From Pseudodesulfovibrio sediminis (GTDB taxonomy: Bacteria; Desulfobacterota; Desulfovibrionia; Desulfovibrionales; Desulfovibrionaceae), in assembly GCF_020886695.1 (NCBI RefSeq), contig NZ_AP024485.1:3167001-3231000 (forward strand): a DNA stretch of 64,000 nt. The letters are read 5' to 3'. Below are positions 51,488 to 63,536 of the stretch, one piece after another. Under the pieces are notes generated by a model that was given only the letters and a program-made list of their open reading frames with translations, was not told the DNA's origin and did no database searches. Every line of letters begins with the position of its first letter. The stretch's first letter is position 1. The position numbers were made by a program, and so were the translations under genes.

Positions 51488-54400
51488 TTAGTTCTGTTTC
51501 ATGGGGATGTCGCTCCCCTTTTTGACCACGGCCGGGTCCCATGCATAGCCCTTGAATCCCTGTTTGAAGAACAGGGCATACAGGACCGGGCAGAGGACCA
51601 GGGTCAGGATCGTGGCAACGGCCAGGCCGGACATGATCAGGTTGGCCATGGGGCGCCACATTTCGCCGCCCTGCAATGAGAGCGGGATCATGCCGATGAT
51701 GGTGGTCGTGGCGGTCATGATGATGGGACGCGAGCGTTCCATGGCCGAAAGCACGATGGCATCGGCCAGCTCAAGCCCTCGGCCACGCTGAATCTCTATG
51801 CGGTCAATGAGCATGATGGCGTTGTTCACGATGATGCCCAATAGCGAGATCATGCCGAGCATGGGCATGAACCCGAAGGGCGCGTTGGTGGCCAGCATGC
51901 CTGTGGAGATGCCGATCATCATGGGCGGCAGGGTCAGCAGGATGATGAGCGGGCGTCTGATCGAGTTGAACTGGAAGATGAGGACGAGCACGAGCAGGCC
52001 CATGGCCAAGGGCATGTTGGCGTTGATGGCCGCCTGGGATTCCGCACTCTTTTCGAACTCGCCGCCGTACTCGACCGTATAGCCAATGGGCCATTGATCA
52101 TCGGCCATATAGGTTTCCAGAACCGGACGGACGTTGCGGAGGATGGAGAGGGCAAAATACCCGTCGGCCACATCCGCCTTGATGGTGATGGCCCGTGACT
52201 GATCCCTTCGTCTGATGTCGGACGGCTGCCAATCCAGCCGTGTGGTGGCTATCTGGCTCAGGGGTACGCTGGTGCCGTTTTCATAGGAATAGACATTGAG
52301 GCTTTCGAGCTTGTCCAGGTGCCCACGGAAACCGCCGTCGTTACGCAGCATGATCGGGATGACCGTGTCGCCGTCGCGATAGTCCGAGGCACGCAGGCCG
52401 CTCATGGAGGTCTGGAGGCTGACGGCTACGTCAAAGCTGGACAGTCCTGCTTCACGCGCCTTGTCCTGATCGACCTCCACCATCATTTTCTTTGTCCATT
52501 GGCCCCAGTCGTCCCAGACACGGGTGATGCCCGGCTGGTCTTCGACCACCCCCACGATCTTGTCACGCAGGGCGTACAGGGTGGAGATGTCCGGGCCGGA
52601 GAGCCTGATTTGAATGGGCGCGCCCACCGGCGGGCCGTTCATGAGTTTCTTGAGGCTGACGTCGGCATCCGGGAAGTTGGTATCCAGTTCTGCCCGGGTA
52701 CGCTTGATGATGCCGTCGACGGATTCAACTGATTTCGTGTTGACCACGAACGTTGCCAGGTTGTCGTTCTGTTGTTCCAGGTTCACAGGCAGGTACCAGC
52801 GGGGGCCGCCATGGCCCACGAAGACACCGACGCTGGCCACGTCTTCATCGGCCAGCAGGAATTTCTCCAACCGGGCCACACGTCTGTTGGTGGTGGTGAT
52901 ATCCGTGCCGTAAGGCTGCCAGAAATCAATGGTGAACTGGGCTCGCTCGTTTGGAGGGAAGAACATCTTGGGTACGAATTTAAAGGCCCAGAACGCCACG
53001 CCGCAGCACAGGAACATGCCCACGATGAACGCGGTCCGATTGCGCAGGCAGGCCAGCAGGAGAGCGCGATATGCGCGGTACAAACGGCTGGTATAGGTCT
53101 GTATGATGATCTTCGGCTTGAGAATGTAGTAGCACAACATGGGCACCATGGACATGGACAGCCCCCAGGAGCAGACCAGTGTCAGGGAGACCACCACGAA
53201 CAGGGATGCACAGAATTCGCCGACCGGATGTTCGGCCATGGGAATGGGCAGAAAGGCGAACACGGTGGTCAGGGACGCGGCCAGCAGCGGCATCCACAGC
53301 TCGGACACAGCGCCGGTCACGGCCTTGAGGCGGTCTTCGCCTGAAGCCAGACGGACCAGGATGGCTTCGGAGACCACGACCCCGTTATCCACCAGAATAC
53401 CCAGTGAGATGATGAGCGAGGCAATGGAGATGCGTTGGAGGCCTACGTCGAAATAGGGCATGAGCGCGATGCACCCGAGCATGGCCATGGGCACCAGCGA
53501 ACCGGCGATGAAGCCGGTGCGCAGTCCGGCAAACAGCAGGATGATGACTACAACAAAGACAAATGATTCCACAAGGTTGATCATGAAATCGTTGATAGCC
53601 GCGTTGACGTAGTCCGGTTGGAAGACCACGATTTCGGCATCGAGCCCCTGATACATGTCGGCGCGCAGTTCTTCGAGGCGTTTGGACACGCGGTCACCCA
53701 GTTCGGTGATGTTGCCGCCGTCTGCCATGGATACGGCCAGCATCAGGCCGGGTTTGCCGTTGAACCGGGTCATGTTGGACGGCGGGTCGGCAAAACCGCG
53801 GGAAACGGTCGTCATGTCGCTGAGACGAACGGAACTCTTTTGTCCCGGAGGCCGCAGGGCCAGGGAGTATATGTCCTCCACGCCGTTGAACTCGCCGGTC
53901 GGTTCGATGGTGATCCGTTCCGGGCCGACCTGGCTGGAACCACTGGGCTGGATGGTGTTCTGGCTTTCGATCATCTGGGCCAGCGCAAAGGGGCTGATGC
54001 CGGCGGCAGCCATGCGCGAGTTCGTGAAATCGACATAGATGCGTTCGGCCTGGACGCCCCAGCGGTCCACCTTGCCCACGCCTTTGATCTTGAGCAGTTG
54101 ATCGCGCATGTCGTCTGCCGCGTCCTTGAGCTCTCGGTAGGAAAACCCATCGCCGGTCAGGGAGATGACAATGCCGAAGACGTCGCCGAATTCGTCATTG
54201 ACCATAGGAGTGTAGGCCTCGTCTGGCAGATTGGGTTTGGCGTCGTCCACCTTGTTGCGGAGTTTCTGCCAGATGGGGGTCATGTTCTTGATGGAGTCGA
54301 GGAACTCCACCTTGACGATGGACAGCCCGGTCATGGACTGGGATTCAACGGTCTTGACTTCGCTGATTTCGCGGATCTTCTCTTCAAGCTTGTCCGTGAC

Positions 54401-54586
54401 GAGCTCTTCAACGCGCTGGGGGGATGCACCGGGGAACACCGTGGTGACAATGGCCGTGCGGATGATGAAATCAGGGTCTTCATCCTTTGGAATGGAGAAG
54501 AACGTCATCACTCCGCTGACCGCGATGATCAGGAAGAGTGCTATGGAGGTGCGATTGTTTTCAATGCACCATCTGGCGAGATTCAT
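51488..54586 (-). CDS. RND multidrug efflux pump, inner-membrane subunit
   Basis: 1032 residues, the standard size of AcrB/MdtB-type pumps, with twelve helices and two large periplasmic loops. The N-terminal SIPKDEDPDFIIRTAIV and PGASPQRVEELVTDKLE are typical. The proton-relay helix reads LGILVDNGVVVSEA, so the second acid of the usual DD pair is Asn, as in some RND branches. It starts 2 nt after the adaptor gene. No outer-membrane factor gene is present, so a shared TolC-like protein must serve. Substrate unknown. Confidence 0.92.
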   Translation of the reverse strand: MNLARWCIENNRTSIALFLIIAVSGVMTFFSIPKDEDPDFIIRTAIVTTVFPGASPQRVEELVTDKLEEKIREISEVKTVESQSMTGLSIVKVEFLDSIKNMTPIWQKLRNKVDDAKPNLPDEAYTPMVNDEFGDVFGIVISLTGDGFSYRELKDAADDMRDQLLKIKGVGKVDRWGVQAERIYVDFTNSRMAAAGISPFALAQMIESQNTIQPSGSSQVGPERITIEPTGEFNGVEDIYSLALRPPGQKSSVRLSDMTTVSRGFADPPSNMTRFNGKPGLMLAVSMADGGNITELGDRVSKRLEELRADMYQGLDAEIVVFQPDYVNAAINDFMINLVESFVFVVVIILLFAGLRTGFIAGSLVPMAMLGCIALMPYFDVGLQRISIASLIISLGILVDNGVVVSEAILVRLASGEDRLKAVTGAVSELWMPLLAASLTTVFAFLPIPMAEHPVGEFCASLFVVVSLTLVCSWGLSMSMVPMLCYYILKPKIIIQTYTSRLYRAYRALLLACLRNRTAFIVGMFLCCGVAFWAFKFVPKMFFPPNERAQFTIDFWQPYGTDITTTNRRVARLEKFLLADEDVASVGVFVGHGGPRWYLPVNLEQQNDNLATFVVNTKSVESVDGIIKRTRAELDTNFPDADVSLKKLMNGPPVGAPIQIRLSGPDISTLYALRDKIVGVVEDQPGITRVWDDWGQWTKKMMVEVDQDKAREAGLSSFDVAVSLQTSMSGLRASDYRDGDTVIPIMLRNDGGFRGHLDKLESLNVYSYENGTSVPLSQIATTRLDWQPSDIRRRDQSRAITIKADVADGYFALSILRNVRPVLETYMADDQWPIGYTVEYGGEFEKSAESQAAINANMPLAMGLLVLVLIFQFNSIRRPLIILLTLPPMMIGISTGMLATNAPFGFMPMLGMISLLGIIVNNAIMLIDRIEIQRGRGLELADAIVLSAMERSRPIIMTATTTIIGMIPLSLQGGEMWRPMANLIMSGLAVATILTLVLCPVLYALFFKQGFKGYAWDPAVVKKGSDIPMKQN

Positions 54587-54588
54587 GG

Positions 54589-55680
54589 CTAGCCTTCCTC
54601 ACCGTTTTTATGAAAGCGCACCTGAAGCCCTTCCTTGAGTCGGTGCACGCCGCGGATGACGATGATGTCTCCGGGGTTGACGCCTTCACGAATTTCAAGG
54701 CCCTGTGAGGAGAGATCGCCCACTACCACCGTTTTCTTGGAAACTGTGGAGTCCTTGGTGTTCACCACCCAGATGGAGCGGGTGCCGTCGGTTTCGCCGA
54801 GGACCGCTACTGCGGGCAGGTAATACACATCTGTTGTTGATTCCCGTCCAAGGAAATCCACATGGCCGGACATGCCGCTTCGGACCAGCTTCTCCTTGTT
54901 GTCGAGGTAGACTTTGACCGGGTAGGTTGACCCGGAGGCGGAGTCCACGCTGACTTCCATGACCGTGCCTTTCATCCTGTGCCCCGGCAGGGCGTCGAAC
55001 AGCACTTCCACGGGATCGCCTTCGTGCACCTGCGAGATCAGAATGTCGGGAATGGCCACGTACATCTTCATCTGGCGGCCTGCGTTGAACGACGCCACGG
55101 ACTGTCCCGCAGAGACGTTCTGGTGAATTTTGCTTTCCACTTTGCCGATCCATCCATCAAAGGGGGCGCGCAGTGTCGTGTAGTTCAGGTGTTTGCGCGC
55201 TATTTCGAGTTTTTTGGACGAGGCACTGAGTTGGGCTTCATACGATTTGAAGTCCGCTTCTATCTGGTCCAGTTCGCCTCGGGAAATGACCCCGCGCACA
55301 AACAGCTCGGTGTTGCGTTTCATGTCGGCTTTTGCGCGGACGTAGTTGGCGCGGATCTGTTCCAGGTTGGCGTTGGCCTGCCGTACTTCCAGTTCATAAT
55401 CAGCGGGATCAAGCCGGGCTATGATTGCGTTCTTGCTGAATCGACGGCCTATCTGATCACCGGGGAAGGCTATGATCTTGCCCCCCACCCGAAAGGAAAG
55501 GTCCGTCTCAAGGGCGTCTTCGGCGACGCCTGCGAAAGTCCACTGCTTGCCCTGGTTGAATGCGCTGACGGTCATGGTCTTGACCGGGCGAATCGGGGCT
55601 TTCACTTCGGCCGGTTTCTTGTTGCAGCCCTGTATGATGAACAGGGAAAGCACAATGGCGAGAACGGTGAATTTATGCAT
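54589..55680 (-). CDS. RND periplasmic adaptor lipoprotein (membrane fusion protein)
   Basis: 363 residues with a lipoprotein signal (LSLFIIQGC, lipobox Cys near residue 19). The order is barrel-sandwich hybrid (FRVGGKIIAFP, GDQIGRRFSKNAIIARLD), a coiled-coil hairpin (~90-165), the second lipoyl half (LRAPFDGWIGKV), then beta-barrel and membrane-proximal domains. It links the RND pump to an outer-membrane channel. ATG 55680 overlaps the TetR stop by 1 nt (TAATG); the longer frame overlaps tetR and is rejected. Confidence 0.92.
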   Translation of the reverse strand: MHKFTVLAIVLSLFIIQGCNKKPAEVKAPIRPVKTMTVSAFNQGKQWTFAGVAEDALETDLSFRVGGKIIAFPGDQIGRRFSKNAIIARLDPADYELEVRQANANLEQIRANYVRAKADMKRNTELFVRGVISRGELDQIEADFKSYEAQLSASSKKLEIARKHLNYTTLRAPFDGWIGKVESKIHQNVSAGQSVASFNAGRQMKMYVAIPDILISQVHEGDPVEVLFDALPGHRMKGTVMEVSVDSASGSTYPVKVYLDNKEKLVRSGMSGHVDFLGRESTTDVYYLPAVAVLGETDGTRSIWVVNTKDSTVSKKTVVVGDLSSQGLEIREGVNPGDIIVIRGVHRLKEGLQVRFHKNGEEG

Positions 55681-56348
55681 TATGCAATCTCCATATGCAG
55701 CCCGAGAAGGCCGCGGATGCGTGTTTGCAGGATGGGGGTGATGGTCTCCAGATGGTCCGCGTATGAAGTCCACCCAAGACGTTTGGTTATGATGGATTGG
55801 CATTCGAGAAATTTGATGATGATGCCGATGATGCAGTGAGAGCTGATAAGCACATTTTCTTTTGGAGTATCGGGCGGAAGGACCGTTTTAACGAGTATCC
55901 GCAAAGCGCTCAGGGTTGGATCAAAGAACTCTCTTTCCAGCTTGGGATAGAGTTCGGAAGGGTACGCCATTTCCCGCGAAATAATGACTGCCCGCCAGAG
56001 GTAATTGATATCAGACAGGAGCGTGTTCACCAGCTGGCCGACAAACCAGTTGACAACCAGCGCTTTTTTGGCCGTATCGGAGCCTGCCTTGTCCAGCCTT
56101 TCCTGTACCTCTTCGTATGACGGGAATATTTCATCCCGCACCTCTATGATCTCTTGCATTATGGCTTCGTACAGTCCGGCCTTGCCGCCGAAATGATAAC
56201 TCACCGTGGCGAGATTGACCTCGGCCTCGGTGGCCAGCGTGCGCATGCTGACGCCGCTGTATCCGTATTGGGCGAATAACCGCGCACCGGTCTCCAGCAA
56301 CGTGGCCCTGGTTTCTTCGCCCTGAATTTTTTTACTGACCTGTGACAT
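55680..56348 (-). CDS. TetR-family repressor of the efflux operon
   Basis: 222 residues. N-terminal helix-turn-helix (TRATLLETGARLFAQYGYSGVSMRTLATEAEVNLATVSYHF) and a ligand domain that resembles the CerR/DUF1956 group. ATG 56348 has AGGAG upstream. It is first in the tetR-adaptor-pump operon and presumably represses it; a candidate operator is at 56424. The inducer is not known. Confidence 0.88.
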   Translation of the reverse strand: MSQVSKKIQGEETRATLLETGARLFAQYGYSGVSMRTLATEAEVNLATVSYHFGGKAGLYEAIMQEIIEVRDEIFPSYEEVQERLDKAGSDTAKKALVVNWFVGQLVNTLLSDINYLWRAVIISREMAYPSELYPKLEREFFDPTLSALRILVKTVLPPDTPKENVLISSHCIIGIIIKFLECQSIITKRLGWTSYADHLETITPILQTRIRGLLGLHMEIA

Positions 56349-56423
56349 ACTCGATACTCCTGAATGCGGCATGCGATTTTGCCATGCTTTAAGGGAATTC
56401 TTACAGCTATACATAGATTATGT

Positions 56424-57353: not shown

Positions 57354-57375
57354 AAACTGAGCGTATACTCAGTTT
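57354..57375. promoter_or_regulatory. TetR operator A of the SulP operon
   Basis: AAACTGAG-CGTATA-CTCAGTTT: perfect 8-bp arms. It lies upstream of the -35 element at 57387. Confidence 0.7.
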
Positions 57376-57423: not shown

Positions 57424-57445
57424 AAACTGAGTGAGCACTCGGTTT
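57424..57445. promoter_or_regulatory. TetR operator B of the SulP operon
   Basis: AAACTGAG-TGAGCA-CTCGGTTT: arms match operator A except for one base. It falls on the predicted transcription start and lies 70 bp centre to centre from operator A. Confidence 0.7.
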
Positions 57446-57470: not shown

Positions 57471-58055
57471 TTGAAGAAGAAAGAAGCCATACTCAAAGTA
57501 GCCACGGTGCTGTTTGCGCATCAGGGGTTTGCAGATACGTCGGTTCATGAACTGGCAAAGCTGACCGAGGTTGCCGAGGGAACCATCTTCTATCATTTCA
57601 AGAGCAAAGAAGGGTTGCTGCTGGCTATCCTGGAGAAGACCAGAGACGAGATAGTTAACCAGTTCGAACAGTTTTTTGAGAACAGACCGTTCGAGTCCGG
57701 TTTCGAGATGGCAGAGGAGGTCGTCTCGTTTTATCTTTATCTGGCTGGATTCATGGAAGACAAGTTCCTTTTGCTGCACAGGCATTTTCTCTACAAATTC
57801 TCCGAGTCCAATCCGGAGTTCAGGGAAAACCTTGAGGCAATTTACAACTGTTTGGTCGATATCTTCGAGAAAGCTATCACCAAAGGACAGGAAGACGGTT
57901 CCATAAATCAGGAAATCCATTCCCGAAAATCCGCGCTCATTCTTTTTACCATGGTAGATGGTCTGGTTCGGTTCAAAAACTACAACTTGTATGATGCGGG
58001 TGCGTTGTTCAACGAATTAATGCGAACATGTCGTAGAATGTTGCAGGCTTCATAG
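57471..58055 (+). CDS. TetR-family regulator of the SulP operon (TTG start)
   Basis: 194 residues. Helix-turn-helix KEAILKVATVLFAHQGFADTSVHELAKLTEVAEGTIFYHF, then a helical ligand domain. The only credible start is TTG 57471: upstream in-frame codons run into a stop and the nearby ATG 57458 is in another frame. AAGGAT is 13 nt upstream, so translation may be weak. SulP follows 13 nt later, so it most likely controls its own operon through the two operators. The ligand is unknown. Confidence 0.85.
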   Translation: MKKKEAILKVATVLFAHQGFADTSVHELAKLTEVAEGTIFYHFKSKEGLLLAILEKTRDEIVNQFEQFFENRPFESGFEMAEEVVSFYLYLAGFMEDKFLLLHRHFLYKFSESNPEFRENLEAIYNCLVDIFEKAITKGQEDGSINQEIHSRKSALILFTMVDGLVRFKNYNLYDAGALFNELMRTCRRMLQAS

Positions 58056-58068
58056 AGGAAGAGGTTGA

Positions 58069-60195
58069 ATGCTTACTAAAATTTTCCCGTTTATTGACTG
58101 GTTCAAAGGGTACAACATGGCAGCGTTTCGCGCGGATGCCATTGCAGGGCTGACTGTTGCCCTGGTGCTCATTCCACAATCCATGGCGTATGCTCAACTG
58201 GCCGGTATGCCCGCATATTACGGTCTGTACGCTTCTTTTCTTCCACCGCTCGTCGCTGCGCTGTTCGGCTCCAGCCGTCAGTTGGCTACCGGTCCGGTGG
58301 CTGTTGTCTCACTCATGACGGCAGCATCGCTGGAACCGCTAGCCACGGCCGGAAGTGAAGGGTACATCGCCTACGCCATCCTGCTCGCGCTCATGGTCGG
58401 TCTGTTCCAGCTCCTGCTCGGCGTGCTCAAGCTCGGGTTGGTGGTCAACTTTCTGTCGCACCCGGTGGTTAACGGCTTCACCAATGCCGCGGCCATCATC
58501 ATTGCCTCTTCCCAGCTCTCCAAGATGTTTGGCGTGTATGTGGACAAGGCAGAGCATCATTACGAAACGATCATTCGTGTGGTGGAAGGGGCTTTTCACT
58601 ATACCCACTGGCCAACATTGGGCATGGGGGTACTCGCTTTTGCCATCATGATCGTGCTTAAACGGTTGAATCCGAAGATTCCCAACGTGCTGGTCGCGGT
58701 TGTCGTGACCACGGCGCTGTCCTGGGGCCTGGGTTTCAATCATGATGCCAATGTCTCCGTGGCAAGCATTCAGGATACTGCGATTCAGCAGTCCATCACA
58801 CAGTTCAATTCCACCATCTCGGGGATTGAAGCTCTGTCAACCGAGCGTACCGCGCTCAACGGCCAGTTGGACAAAGCCAAAACCGACAAAGACCCCGTGC
58901 GTGTTCTCGACATGGAGCACGACATCAATGTGGTCAACGTCCAGATTTCCCGACTCAAACTTGAGGCGCACACGCTCCGTGAAGCGCTGCGTTCCACGTT
59001 GTTTGAAGGCGTGGAAGAAGCGGGCGGAAACATGGCCTTCTATGTCCAGGGCGCAGTACCTGCCGGTATGGAAGGCGATGGTCGAGTCTGGCGCGTGAAG
59101 GTGGGAAACAACACGCTTGATACCTCCAAGCTGAAGATGATGGGCGGCGGCGCAGTTGTTGGCACGGTGCCCTCCGGTATCCCGTCCATCTCCGCACCGA
59201 AGCTGGACCTGAAGGTCATGCTGCACCTGTTGCCTTTTGCGGCCATCATTTCTCTGCTCGGTTTCATGGAAGCCATTTCCATCGCCAAGGCCATGGCCGC
59301 CAAGACCGGGCAACGTCTTGATCCCAACCAGGAACTTATCGGTCAGGGCCTCGGCAACATCCTCGGCGCCTGTGGCAAGTCCTACCCCGCATCCGGTTCA
59401 TTCTCCCGATCGGCGGTCAACCTGCAGGCCGGGGCTGTCTCCGGTATGTCCAGCGTCTTTACCTCGCTCATGGTCGTTATTGCCCTGCTGTTCTTCACGC
59501 CGCTGCTCTATCATCTGCCTCAGGCAGTGCTGGCCGCAGTCATCATGATGGCCGTCATCGGGCTGATCAACGCCTCAGGTTTCATCCACGCATGGAAAGC
59601 ACAGTGGTATGATGGCGCCATCTCCATTCTCTCCTTTGTCTGCACATTGGCTTTTGCCCCTCATCTGGACAAGGGCATCATGGTCGGTGTGGCGCTTTCC
59701 CTGGCAGTATTCCTGTACAAGTCCATGCGTCCCAAGGTCGCCAACCTGTCCCGCACCGAGGACAAAGCCCTGCGTGACGCCACAGCACACGGTCTTCGTG
59801 AATGCCAGCACATCGCGCTGGTCCGTTTCGATGGCCCGCTGTTTTTTGCAAATGCCAGTTTTCTGGAAGACCAGATCACTGATCGTATGGTAGCAAGTGA
59901 CAAGCTCAGACATATCATTATCGTGGCCAACGGCATAAACGACATCGACGCATCGGGCGAGGAAGCGCTCTCCCTCATTGTGGATCGAGTTCGCGCTTCC
60001 GGCCTGGATATCTCCATGTGCGGTGTTAACGAGGCGGTCATGGCCGTGCTTGAACGCACCCACCTGTTGGAGAAGATCGGTGAAGATCATGTCTATCCGA
60101 CCATGGAATCCGCCATCTGTGCCACGCACGAAAATGCACACAGGGATGGCCTGGAAGATAACTGCCCGCTGACAACCGTTTGCCGTCTCACCTAG
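58069..60195 (+). CDS. SulP family anion permease with coiled-coil-like insertion and STAS domain
   Basis: 708 residues, longer than the usual 550-600. The SulP signature is AYYGLYASFLPPLVAALFGSSRQLATGPVAVVS; later AISIAKAMAAKTGQRLDPNQELIGQG. A C-terminal STAS domain (~570-700, with DIDASGEEALSLI) is present. Residues ~226-360, between SWGLGF and VVGTVPSGIP, are an insertion rich in heptad-like, charged sequence (TAIQQSITQFNSTIS, ALNGQLDKAKTDKD, ISRLKLEAHTLREAL) not seen in ordinary SulP proteins. Sulfate or another oxyanion, or bicarbonate, is the likely cargo. GGAAGAGGTTGA precedes the ATG. Confidence 0.9.
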   Translation: MLTKIFPFIDWFKGYNMAAFRADAIAGLTVALVLIPQSMAYAQLAGMPAYYGLYASFLPPLVAALFGSSRQLATGPVAVVSLMTAASLEPLATAGSEGYIAYAILLALMVGLFQLLLGVLKLGLVVNFLSHPVVNGFTNAAAIIIASSQLSKMFGVYVDKAEHHYETIIRVVEGAFHYTHWPTLGMGVLAFAIMIVLKRLNPKIPNVLVAVVVTTALSWGLGFNHDANVSVASIQDTAIQQSITQFNSTISGIEALSTERTALNGQLDKAKTDKDPVRVLDMEHDINVVNVQISRLKLEAHTLREALRSTLFEGVEEAGGNMAFYVQGAVPAGMEGDGRVWRVKVGNNTLDTSKLKMMGGGAVVGTVPSGIPSISAPKLDLKVMLHLLPFAAIISLLGFMEAISIAKAMAAKTGQRLDPNQELIGQGLGNILGACGKSYPASGSFSRSAVNLQAGAVSGMSSVFTSLMVVIALLFFTPLLYHLPQAVLAAVIMMAVIGLINASGFIHAWKAQWYDGAISILSFVCTLAFAPHLDKGIMVGVALSLAVFLYKSMRPKVANLSRTEDKALRDATAHGLRECQHIALVRFDGPLFFANASFLEDQITDRMVASDKLRHIIIVANGINDIDASGEEALSLIVDRVRASGLDISMCGVNEAVMAVLERTHLLEKIGEDHVYPTMESAICATHENAHRDGLEDNCPLTTVCRLT

Positions 60196-60217: not shown

Positions 60218-61435
60218 ATGTCTGTAATTACCGCATTCAACGGCCTTTTCTCAGAAGCTGGAGTCGTGATCAAGCGCGTCCTTGACGCCACCGATTACCG
60301 GCTCATCACCGATCAGGAGATCGTGGCTGACGCCGCAAAGCTCTCCGGCATGTCCGAGGGCAAGATCGCCCGAGCCTTTCAGGCCAAGGCTTCCGTATTC
60401 AACGCATTCAGTCATGAAAAGGAGCGGGCCATTGCCTGGCTCCGTCTGGCCATGGCGCACAAGCTCATTGACCAGGACAAGCTGTTGTTTTCCGGTTTCG
60501 TTGCTCATTTACCTTCGGTCAATATTGATCACATCCTGAAGGTTTGTCTCATCTCCGAGATGAAAGACCGTCTGGCTGTGGCCGAACGCACGGAAGGGTA
60601 TGCCGAGAAGCACGCCGCGAAACTCATTCACAAGGATGACGAAGACCGCGTCATGTGGGTCAAGAACCTCAAGGACACCGATGATCCCTGGGCCGGTTCG
60701 CTCTATGATCTCGTGGTGCCTGTGGGCGCTTCCGGCGTGGAGCAGAGCGCCGACCTCATCGTGGAACAGCTGGCCAACGCTGCTGTTCAGGTGACGGACG
60801 CCTCCCAGGCTCAGGTCGCTGACTTCCTGCTGGCTGCCAAGGTCGGAACCGTGCTGGCCGGTGAAGGCCACAACGTCCTTGTCTCCGCCTCGGGTACAGC
60901 CGTGACCCTGACCATCAACAAGCATGTTCTGATGTTGGAACGGCTCGAACGCGAGCTGTCTGAAATCGTGAGCAAGGTCGATGGCGTGGAGTCGGTTGAA
61001 ACGCATGTGGGCAAGGGCTTCCACCAGACCGACATCTATCGCAAGGCGGATTTCGATATCCCGTCCAAGGTGCTGCTGGTCGATGATGAACGTGAGTTCG
61101 TCCAGACCCTGTCCGAGCGTCTGATGATGCGCGACATGGGTTCTGCTGTCGTCTACGACGGTGAAGCCGCGCTGAATCTGATGCAGGAAGACGAGCCGGA
61201 AGTCATGATCCTCGACCTGAAGATGCCCGGCATCGACGGTATTGAGGTGCTGCGCCGCGTCAAAAACGACTACCCCAATATCCAGGTGATCATTCTGACA
61301 GGTCATGGGTCTGAAAAGGATCGTGAAATCTGCATGGAGTTGGGCGCATTTGCCTATCTGCACAAGCCCGTGGACATCGATGTGTTGAGCGAGACGCTCA
61401 AGGCAGCCAACGAAAAGGTCCAGAGCAAAGGATAA
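60218..61435 (+). CDS. Cytidylate-kinase-like, BON-like and receiver fusion protein
   Basis: 405 residues. Residues 1-~185 follow the cytidylate-kinase-like (Cytidylate_kin2) pattern: RVLDATDYRLITDQEIVADAAKLSGMSE, then FSGFVAHLP, DRLAVAERTEGYAEKHAAKLIHKDDEDRVMWV and DPWAGSLYDLVV. The P-loop position reads AFNGLFSEAGV, without GxxGxGK, so kinase activity is doubtful. Residues ~195-275 look BON-like (ADFLLAAKVGTVL, VDGVESVETHV). Residues ~282-400 are a receiver with acceptor Asp333 (MILDLKMPG). GGGAGTAAAT precedes the ATG. It probably couples a nucleotide-like or stress input to phosphorylation by the neighbouring kinase. Confidence 0.75.
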   Translation: MSVITAFNGLFSEAGVVIKRVLDATDYRLITDQEIVADAAKLSGMSEGKIARAFQAKASVFNAFSHEKERAIAWLRLAMAHKLIDQDKLLFSGFVAHLPSVNIDHILKVCLISEMKDRLAVAERTEGYAEKHAAKLIHKDDEDRVMWVKNLKDTDDPWAGSLYDLVVPVGASGVEQSADLIVEQLANAAVQVTDASQAQVADFLLAAKVGTVLAGEGHNVLVSASGTAVTLTINKHVLMLERLERELSEIVSKVDGVESVETHVGKGFHQTDIYRKADFDIPSKVLLVDDEREFVQTLSERLMMRDMGSAVVYDGEAALNLMQEDEPEVMILDLKMPGIDGIEVLRRVKNDYPNIQVIILTGHGSEKDREICMELGAFAYLHKPVDIDVLSETLKAANEKVQSKG

Positions 61436-61453: not shown

Positions 61454-63181
61454 ATGTCGATATTCAACAAGATCAGACCACAGTTCTGGGAGACCGGCTC
61501 CAATGTCGGCCCAGGCAAGTCGCTGTTCAACTACCGTCGCATTTGGCGTATCGCCATTGCCGTACTGGCAGTTGTTGCCCTTGTCCCCCTGTGCGTCATG
61601 GCTGTTATCGATTATAACGTCACCCGGAATTCGCTTGAATCCGAGTCGCTACTGCGCACGGCCCGGACCACTTCCAACACCCGCCGTACGGTAGCGTTCT
61701 TCTTGCAGGAGCGCCAACAGGCACTCGATTTTCTGGCCATGCACCAGGGGCTTGAAGCGCTGCGGGATTGCGAGAATCTCGGGCGGGTGCTTGATTCCCT
61801 GAAGAGCAGCTTCGGCGGTTTCGTGGATATCGGCATTATCAACGATCAGGGGCTGCAGATCGCCTACATCGGTCCGTATGATCTGATCGGCCGCAATTAC
61901 CGTGATCAGGAGTGGTTTTCAAACACAATGGGACAGGGGGATTACATCAGTGGCGTTTTTCTCGGATTCCGAGATGAACCGCATCTGGTTATTGCCCGCA
62001 AGATCGTGGATGAAAAATCAGGCAAGAGTTTTATTTTAAGAGCGACGCTCGACACGGAACAGTTCAATTCCATTCTGTGGTCTTTGGATCTCCCCAAGGG
62101 GGGCGATGCCTTTATCGTGGACCGGGAAGGTGTTCTGCAAACGCCGTCAAGACTGCACGGGTCATTGCTGACCCAGGTGAGTCTGGCTGTTCCGGGATAT
62201 TCCGAGAAGACCAGTGTCGAACAGATCGTGGACAAGGACGGCACGGACTTGACCGTTGGATATGTCTACATTCGCGGCACGCCGTTTATTGTCATGGTGG
62301 TCAAGAAAACCCGGGAGCTGATGAGCCTGCTGCAGACCATTCGCATGGAACTCATGTGGCTCATGGCTGTCAGCATCGCGATTATACTGCTTGTTATCGT
62401 GTGGGTCGCCACTTACATGGTCAACAAGATCTATATTGCGGACCAGACCCGGGCACAGGCGCTGCACCGTATGGAACACACGAATCGCATGGCCTCCATT
62501 GGCCGACTGGCAGCGGGCGTGGCCCATGAAATCAACAATCCGCTGGCCATCATCAACGAGAAGGCCGGTCTCATCAATGACCTCTTCGAGTTCAAGGAAG
62601 AGTACGTTCATGACGAGCGCCTGTTGAATAATATCAAGTCGATTATTGACTCTGTGCAGCGATGTGGCAAAATTACCAAACGTCTGCTCAGCTTCGCGCG
62701 TCACATAGATATTGATATGGATGCCATCAAGTTCAAGGAGCTGGCAGAGGAAGTTATTGATTTTCTGCGCAAAGAGGCGGAGTATCGGAGTATCTCAATC
62801 ACTATGGATATTCCAGAGAATCTGCCGGAGTTCATATCCGACCGCGGCAAGTTGCAGCAGATTTTTTTGAATTTGGTCAACAACGCCTTCCAGGCCATGA
62901 ACGATGGCGGCAACCTCGCCATCAGCGCGACGCCTTCTGATAAGGACTCGCTGGTGTTCACGGTTCGGGACGATGGCTGCGGCATCCCGGCGGAAGACAA
63001 GAAACGTATTTTCGACCCCTTCTTCTCCACCAAGAAGAGAACGGGCGGCACCGGGCTGGGGCTCTCCATTACCTATGGATTGGTCCAGGAGCTGGGCGGC
63101 TCCATGTCAGTGGAGAGCGAGGTCGGCGTCGGAACGGAATTTATCATAACCATGCCCTTGAAGGCCCCGGAAAAGGCTTAA
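61454..63181 (+). CDS. Membrane histidine kinase with periplasmic double-Cache sensor
   Basis: 575 residues. TM1 near 36-56, Cache sensor ~60-295 (FVDIGIINDQGLQIAYIGPYD, SGVFLGFRDEPHLVIARK, FIVDREGVLQT), TM2 near 298-320, HisKA with His358 (GVAHEINNP), HATPase with NLVNNAFQAM, DDGCGIP and GGTGLGLS. The sensor matches the 3336 kinase block by block. It starts 18 nt after the fusion gene and is followed 4 nt later by a receiver. Best candidate donor for the 60218 and 63186 receivers. Confidence 0.92.
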   Translation: MSIFNKIRPQFWETGSNVGPGKSLFNYRRIWRIAIAVLAVVALVPLCVMAVIDYNVTRNSLESESLLRTARTTSNTRRTVAFFLQERQQALDFLAMHQGLEALRDCENLGRVLDSLKSSFGGFVDIGIINDQGLQIAYIGPYDLIGRNYRDQEWFSNTMGQGDYISGVFLGFRDEPHLVIARKIVDEKSGKSFILRATLDTEQFNSILWSLDLPKGGDAFIVDREGVLQTPSRLHGSLLTQVSLAVPGYSEKTSVEQIVDKDGTDLTVGYVYIRGTPFIVMVVKKTRELMSLLQTIRMELMWLMAVSIAIILLVIVWVATYMVNKIYIADQTRAQALHRMEHTNRMASIGRLAAGVAHEINNPLAIINEKAGLINDLFEFKEEYVHDERLLNNIKSIIDSVQRCGKITKRLLSFARHIDIDMDAIKFKELAEEVIDFLRKEAEYRSISITMDIPENLPEFISDRGKLQQIFLNLVNNAFQAMNDGGNLAISATPSDKDSLVFTVRDDGCGIPAEDKKRIFDPFFSTKKRTGGTGLGLSITYGLVQELGGSMSVESEVGVGTEFIITMPLKAPEKA

Positions 63182-63185
63182 TGAT

Positions 63186-63536
63186 ATGAAGATTTTATTA
63201 GTTGATGACGAAGTTGAGCTGGTCTCGGCAATGGCCGAACGTCTTTCGTTCCGCAGCGTGGATGCGGACTGGACCGACAACGGTGAGACAGCCCTGAAAA
63301 TGGCTGCGGAAACCGACTATGCCGTGGCGGTTCTGGATATGAAAATGCCCAAAATGGGTGGTCTTGAACTCCAGGAATCATTGGCTGCCGAGCATCCGGA
63401 TATGAAGTTCATCTTCCTTTCCGGCCATGGGTCCGAATCCGATTTCAAGGCCGGTTGTGCCGCTGGATGCAACTATCTGATCAAACCCGTGCAGATCGAG
63501 AGTTTGATGGATAAAATACAGGAAGCTCTTGCTTAG
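63186..63536 (+). CDS. Stand-alone response regulator receiver
   Basis: 116 residues, a single receiver. Asp7, Asp8 and acceptor Asp51 (VLDMKMPKMGG); the switch position is Ser in FLSGHGSES, which is allowed; Lys in IKPVQ. No output domain. It begins 4 nt after the kinase stop and 14 nt before a second kinase, so it may be an intermediate in a phosphorelay. Confidence 0.9.
   Translation: MKILLVDDEVELVSAMAERLSFRSVDADWTDNGETALKMAAETDYAVAVLDMKMPKMGGLELQESLAAEHPDMKFIFLSGHGSESDFKAGCAAGCNYLIKPVQIESLMDKIQEALA

Follow-up and report, generated by a model that had tools for sequence, protein, structure and literature searches.

A receiver-fused, kinase-like protein encoded beside a SulP permease in Pseudodesulfovibrio sediminis: a candidate permease adaptor

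What might a response regulator act on when its receiver is joined to a kinase-like domain and its gene lies directly behind that of a SulP permease? The question is raised by an open reading frame at 60218-61435 (+) (ATG at 60218, stop ending at 61435, 405 aa) in a 64,000-nucleotide stretch of the Pseudodesulfovibrio sediminis genome (contig NZ_AP024485.1), hereafter the window. A first-pass annotation made from the sequence had read the product as a degenerate cytidylate-kinase-like domain that keeps the later motifs of its family but lacks a P-loop, followed by a BON-like segment and a full C-terminal receiver, and had placed the gene between a SulP permease and a Cache kinase; this account of the parts and their order was upheld by the analysis described here. 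Sulfate respiration begins with the uptake of sulfate; how these bacteria regulate that step is unsettled, and extensive molecular studies on it are called for in PMC5840216. The features of the locus are as follows.

57356-57373 and 57426-57443 (no strand): two TetR-operator-like palindromes 5' of tetR, pattern ACTGAGYGNNNRCTCRGT
57471-58055 (+): TetR-family regulator (Pfam TetR_N, E 5.5e-15); TTG start as listed, start codon uncertain
58069-60195 (+): SulP permease with a C-terminal STAS domain, 708 aa (Pfam Sulfate_transp 1.9e-103, STAS 4.5e-16; NCBIfam TIGR00815 above cut-off)
60218-61435 (+): putative pseudokinase - BON-like - receiver protein (P0001), 405 aa (open reading frame list, Pfam, AlphaFold2)
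60218-60787 (+): Cytidylate_kin2-fold domain without P-loop, residues 1-190 (Pfam, fold comparison, residue counts)
60797-61027 (+): BON-like domain, residues ~194-270, including the block VTLTINKHVLML at residues 229-240 (AlphaFold2 topology, Pfam BON in relatives, conservation)
61070-61399 (+): receiver domain, residues 285-394, with D289, D290, D333, T361 and K383 (Pfam)
61454-63181 (+): dCache sensor histidine kinase (Pfam dCache_1 1.6e-15, HisKA 1.6e-8, HATPase_c 2e-28)
63186-63536 (+): stand-alone receiver without output domain, 116 aa (Pfam Response_reg 8e-21, residues 3-112)

The five genes from tetR to the lone receiver run on the same strand with gaps of 13, 22, 18 and 4 bp, so that a single transcript is likely. 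The pattern ACTGAGYGNNNRCTCRGT was found at two sites, on both strands at each, with at most one mismatch, against a mean of 0.74 matches in shuffled sequence and four or more matches in 2 of 100 shuffles, values that apply to the window and to a pattern taken post hoc from the very sequence that it scores. These ACTGAG...CTCAGT-type palindromes ahead of tetR are predicted, and likely, autoregulatory operators. A promoter and terminator scan stayed at chance level (4 and 6 sites against 4.1 and 6.7 expected). The window SulP carries an insertion at residues ~237-355 that splits its Sulfate_transp match into two stretches and that was spanned by the best tblastn match of this permease in most relative loci; in length and description, on which the comparison was made, it resembles SulP group Ci of Marietou et al. 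2018, whose members owe their length of about 710 aa to an inserted stretch of ~90 aa (PMC5840216). Upstream of the operon, and as a sequence impression, stand a 1032 aa open reading frame resembling an RND efflux pump, a 404 aa one resembling its adaptor and a further TetR-like one, the three together at 51488-55803 and 55680-56414.

One scan of the species-genome collection returned 74 loci, 73 of them with true relatives of the window protein (the one dropped, L074, matched in the receiver only). Matches extended from residue 1 to at least residue 399 in 69 of the 73, with identities of 46-84% in 72 relatives and 39% in one, by which a chance open reading frame was rejected; a frameshift or fusion artefact was likewise rejected because the architecture is identical throughout alignment A1, whose 62 rows were chosen as full-length (61 of the 73 relatives plus the window protein). 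The protein is real, conserved and under-described, and it is its mechanism that we infer below. By record labels the relatives are mostly deltaproteobacterial (Desulfobacterota), the other labelled hosts being two Nitrospirae and single Thermodesulfovibrionales, Acidobacteria, Thermoanaerobaculales and gammaproteobacterial metagenome-assembled genomes. A search with the N-terminal part gave matches at E <= 0.001 in 32 of 41 genomes including the window's own, some of them through paralogues only, and in a sample of the phylum the family was matched in 114 of 297 genomes (E <= 1e-10); a receiver followed in the same frame in all 30 best loci of that sample, the window among them.

Conservation with sulP, on which the first-pass annotation had made its reading depend, was pronounced: of 72 testable loci, 70 had a SulP gene directly upstream. 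The distance to the end of the SulP match was 24-53 bp in 63 of these and never exceeded 477 bp. The two loci at which SulP was not found were L056, with TetR alone upstream, and L049, with 367 bp of flank. Of the loci testable for each further neighbour, 58 of 68 had a histidine kinase directly downstream, 47 of 62 had both the kinase and the lone receiver, and 48 of 60 had TetR ahead of sulP, all counted by tblastn thresholds at which diverged neighbours may be missed; among the 10 loci without a kinase directly downstream, five (L053, L054, L058, L059 and L071) had a kinase homologue upstream. The tightest bond seen at these loci is thus that of the permease with the putative adaptor. Operon neighbourhood by itself can reflect shared expression. 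Eleven receiver-fused genes in further regions extended the association, six adjoining SulP, three adjoining DASS, one with DASS within 5 kb and one with none; fused forms beside DASS were seen at L092, L093 and L094. Also in the fused clade are longer proteins (L089:2827-4635, L095:3166-4785, L088 and L090) that carry a second BON-like repeat and whose receiver has diverged or is missing; three of the four adjoin another kind of SulP (24-25% identity over the second half of that permease).

The gene cluster as such is already in print. A sulP-TCS-TetR cluster has been described in Desulfobacteraceae (Sci Adv 2025, PMC11887813), with the same gene content as far as its text, rather than gene maps, allows comparison, and Desulfonema magnum, one of the six strains of that study, carries a cluster of the window type (L023). 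Such sulP clusters are reported to have a palindrome of 16 bp ahead of the transcription start (PMC11887813). The words cytidylate, BON, kinase-like and STAS are absent from the main text of PMC11887813, as are kinase, response regulator and two-component from that of PMC5840216, and no description of a pseudokinase-BON-receiver module or of its three-permease link was found in open-licence PMC papers, supplements aside. Where the kinase-like family did occur in those papers, it was in one case as a gene-list entry, and PF13189 was absent from the main text of the DolP paper (PMC7806268). A D. vulgaris regulator survey (PMC3333781) and a mutant-library paper on D. vulgaris (PMC10102598) yielded nothing usable for this gene.

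The nature of the N-terminal part was approached by profile and by structure. Pfam assigned residues 27-167 to Cytidylate_kin2 (PF13189; E 7.6e-12, 46.2 bits against a cut-off of 28), covering positions 25-172 of the 176 in the profile and leaving its P-loop end unmatched. An AlphaFold2 model of the whole protein from the 62 rows of A1 had a pLDDT of 85.8 and a pTM of 0.79, with a weak linker at residues 271-280, and a model of residues 1-280 alone (51 rows) had a pLDDT of 91.8. The latter model matched 3fdi_A (VIA Z 19.0, 160 residues, 1.8 Å) and 3hdt_A (VIA Z 18.9, 164 residues, 2.1 Å), with the next-best folds, true CMP kinases among them, at Z 12.3 and about 12; both checks proposed for this domain, by HMM and by structure prediction, therefore returned Cytidylate_kin2 and not an unrelated fold. 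The family sequence profile also reached the PDB pair 3fdi and 3hdt (E 4e-5 and 1.6e-4). A phmmer search of PDB with the single sequence of residues 1-283 gave no significant match, and in a fold search with the whole-protein model receivers filled the list, leaving the N-terminal part uninformed.

Residue counts separated the receiver-fused branch from its receiver-less relatives. An R or K at position 8 was present in 0 of 81 fused rows against 76 of 100 receiver-less rows, and G14 with K or R at 15 in 1 of 81 against 61 of 100 (counted by position without gaps in 181 of 183 rows, with L070, L089 and L090 taken as receiver-less). In a shared alignment position 110 was R in 44 of the 49 main receiver-less rows and C in eight of nine fused rows, and position 32 was R in 34 of the 49 and D in all nine; A1 gave C110 in 62 of 62 rows and D32 in 59. 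The later motifs mostly stay in the fused branch (R118 in 61 of the 62 rows, D141 in 55, Y163 in 57 and D164 in 62). In the alignments 3fdi and 3hdt themselves show a GSGG loop that lacks the Walker lysine, so that the missing canonical P-loop is partly a trait of the wider Cytidylate_kin2 family; what is special to the fused branch is the loss of the entire loop together with basic positions (R8, G14-K15, R32 and R110). The window protein shares with that family the fold and the later motifs, among them a Y-D pair close to residue 164, and differs from it in having neither a GSGG nor a GK loop, in the lost basic positions and in the fused BON-like and receiver parts. An active CMP or NMP kinase was rejected on the loss of the expected phosphate-binding residues (positions 8 and 14-15 lost, 32 and 110 replaced). 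The kinase part of the window protein is most likely a pseudokinase that retains the fold, and phosphoryl transfer by it is unlikely because the whole loop and the basic positions have been lost; from the fold, the lost residues would be expected to have made the phosphate contacts.

The same residues bear on the suggestion in the first-pass annotation of a new signalling output or a nucleotide sensor. As a sensor, the kinase fold would bind a small molecule, either a nucleotide or a product of sulfate activation such as APS, in a residual acceptor site and, modulated by the receiver, would report metabolic state to the permease. The retention of R118, D141, Y163 and D164 is what such a site would call for, and many receiver-less relatives with a variant P-loop (GSYSxGKE) may bind nucleotide; in the fused branch, however, positions 8 and 14-15 have been given up almost without exception and D32 and C110 stand where most receiver-less rows have R, so that the expected phosphate contacts are gone, and ligand sensing by this branch is unlikely. 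The nucleotide-sensor half of the suggestion therefore lost ground, whereas the half concerning an unusual, apparently non-DNA-binding output held.

The segment that follows was predicted by AlphaFold2 as helix-strand-strand-helix-strand (H194-215, E221-225, E228-233, H240-251 and E259-264), in line with the BON-like assignment of the first-pass annotation. The HMM check proposed for it gave a divided answer, Pfam BON (PF04972) being unmatched in the window protein but found at E <= 1 in 33 of 75 family members scanned (best 3.2e-14). An hhalign comparison of the fused branch with the seven BON matches of the same genome, five of which exceed the Pfam cut-off, was weak (probability 5%, E 0.0076), and BON structures were absent among the best 50 matches of each fold search with residues 1-280, in which the kinase fold filled the lists. 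A BON domain thus appears to hold for part of the family, and for the window protein it is a prediction from topology and relatives. Within this part the block VTLTINKHVLML has a conservation of 0.946 against 0.954 in the receiver core, as would be expected of a binding surface, and we regard it as a candidate contact surface.

BON domains invite a further explanation, in which this part would bind lipid or ions, the receiver would control recruitment to the membrane or a scaffold and SulP would be a mere neighbour. Precedents are DolP, a dual-BON protein that binds phospholipid (PMC7806268), and Kbp, a BON protein termed a cytoplasmic potassium sensor in the title of a cited paper. Such a role would leave the near-constant adjacency of SulP unexplained and would build on a BON assignment that is itself weak in the fused branch, and we consider it decidedly unlikely.

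The C-terminal part is a receiver (Pfam Response_reg, residues 285-394, E 9.5e-28), with the response-regulator active-site residues D289, D290, D333, T361 and K383 invariant in all 62 aligned rows. For the lone receiver, too, the match covers the whole length of the profile. Pfam found no DNA-binding domain in either regulator, and the best 25 of 102 and best 25 of 92 NCBIfam matches for the fused protein and the lone receiver covered receiver residues only, those of the fused protein lying far below cut-off. By its domain content the fused protein therefore does not appear to be a DNA-binding response regulator of the OmpR/WalR, NtrC or NarL classes.

This bears directly on the published scheme, worded as one that "may operate", in which the kinase would act through "WalR type" response regulators of the cluster, with arrows to the sulP and DASS promoters (PMC11887813). 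A TetR regulator and operator-like palindromes are indeed present in the window and would suit transcriptional control. The two window regulators, by contrast with those named WalR-type and promoter-acting in that study, have no recognised DNA-binding domain in Pfam or in their best NCBIfam matches, the paper's own genes being compared by description, and according to the same paper Ds. variabilis makes the SulP of such a cluster constitutively and in abundance (PMC11887813). Judged by domain content, the published transcription model does not fit these two regulators, and we consider a circuit of this kind very unlikely here. A repressor-based variant would have the phosphorylated pseudokinase-BON body bind the TetR protein and so derepress the operon. 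It would accord with an output without a recognised DNA-binding domain and with the 48 of 60 testable loci that have tetR in the same run, but a match to the window TetR was missing at the other 12, which have adaptor and SulP, and near the DASS-linked fused forms L092, L093 and L094, in both cases with the reservation that the search could have overlooked a TetR from a different subfamily; its chances seem very slim.

Action on the permease is the simplest reading to be drawn from the sequence, because an intact receiver, no recognised DNA-binding domain, a Cache kinase alongside and a near-constant permease neighbour occur together. We put somewhat below even, at roughly 0.45, the probability that the protein is a response regulator whose kinase-fold/BON adaptor output acts post-translationally on the adjacent SulP. 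In such a system the dCache kinase would respond to a ligand in the periplasm, which may be the transported anion itself, and, given its adjacency and the intact sites, would pass phosphate to D333 of the fused protein, to the lone receiver or to both. Phosphorylation would alter the binding of the pseudokinase-BON part to SulP, at the STAS domain or another cytoplasmic face, and the altered binding would raise or lower uptake; TetR would set the amount of the operon's products, and the lone receiver may share or drain phosphate. Protein contacts made by the STAS domain may serve to regulate transport by SulP (PMC5840216). Besides the constitutive formation of SulP in Ds. variabilis, expression of HRM2_33490, a SulP of a sulfate-reducing bacterium taken here irrespective of its gene context, was unchanged between low and high sulfate (PMC5840216), and both observations are compatible with a control that acts on activity. 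That the transported anion would be sulfate, and not some other, is taken from published annotation.

PII-type control of ammonium channels is a familiar parallel, in which a soluble signalling protein whose gene accompanies that of the permease adjusts the permease's activity. The folds of PII and of the pseudokinase-BON protein are unrelated, and the signal proposed here would be receiver phosphorylation. Were the proposal correct, a receiver-controlled permease adaptor would constitute a post-translational control point in sulfate uptake, would question the assumption that the regulators of these clusters bind promoters and would provide a role open to testing for a family that over a third of the sampled genomes of the phylum contain.

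The fused proteins belong to a wider family with the same kinase family followed by BON or a BON-like part, and many of the matches listed in the phylum sample were open frames of 260-350 aa without a receiver. Unlike the fused branch, many of these have a variant P-loop, the full R8-G14-K/R15 set being kept in 56 of 100 receiver-less rows, typically as ITISRGSYSxGKE, and some have anion permeases and two-component genes as neighbours. A tree was made of 128 N-terminal domains (one fused row in four from set A, quick search, SH-aLRT support only), and in it all 29 receiver fusions fell in one clade of 32 with an SH-aLRT of 100. Its other three members were L070, cut by a contig end, and L089 and L090, with the receiver below threshold or missing; since these three sit in the fused clade, the receiver label needs four changes on the tree. 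As all 29 fused rows share this strongly supported clade, the receiver fusion probably arose once, on the branch on which the P-loop residues were lost.

Permease neighbours were counted for 65 receiver-less genes, hand-picked down the hit list before their neighbours were seen, with tandem pairs visible from the coordinates; this is a fairer sample than a larger set of 95, which includes regions chosen for tandem and long forms. Twelve adjoined a permease on the same strand (11 DASS, one TSUP), 10 more had one within 5 kb, 37 had none and six lay near an end; by locus (58 in all) the figures were 12, 4, 36 and 6. The permease HMMs derive from neighbours that had come up before the count, MFS and Nramp fall outside the count, and DASS here denotes a best Pfam model of CitMHS with Na_sulph_symp second, and TSUP denotes TauE, examples of which, together with USP, were checked by Pfam. 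In ten genomes holding the family, the SulP, DASS and TSUP families gave 149 matches in ~40.6 Mb, a background share of ~0.4% of genes when a gene is counted per kb. Adjacent permeases are well above this background, and more than half of the receiver-less genes are without any, so that the family has other uses.

Among the neighbourhoods that recurred, two link receiver-less genes to permeases. One reads large receiver protein-USP-DASS-CMKBON-CMKBON(degenerate)-REC-HK (L134, L139, L161, L163, L174 and L181; some incomplete), the large receiver protein being NtrC-like by length alone; the other reads receiver protein-USP-long CMKBON-TSUP-REC-HK (L144, L145, L149 and others, in part). In the tandem pairs by DASS at the six loci of the first kind the second copy has a degenerate P-loop, and the two copies are possibly an enzyme-pseudoenzyme pair. 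Tentatively, and with the odds leaning against so broad a claim, pseudokinase-BON and kinase-BON proteins may serve sulfate reducers quite generally as permease adaptors, coupled to the unrelated anion-permease families SulP, DASS and TSUP, with the fused branch as a two-component switch of sulfate uptake without transcription and the paired receiver-less copies by DASS as its enzyme-pseudoenzyme version.

Several smaller observations concern the wider family. Long CMK-BON proteins (open frames of 505-586 aa) adjoin TSUP at L144:5571-7106, L145:4557-6122, L146, L149 and L150, and in that of L145, the one scanned singly, Pfam assigned nothing beyond residue 166. A protein resembling PPDK_N/PEP-utilisers recurs near CMK-BON genes (L092, L150, L172, L193 and L201), a link unrelated to permeases. 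The window's own genome holds a receiver-less CMK-BON paralogue (L087:4267-5097, C1:1043266; 27% identity) with the variant P-loop GSYSRGK, whose neighbours are a glutamate-synthase-domain protein (Pfam) and, as an impression, a protein resembling a cyclic-nucleotide-binding regulator.
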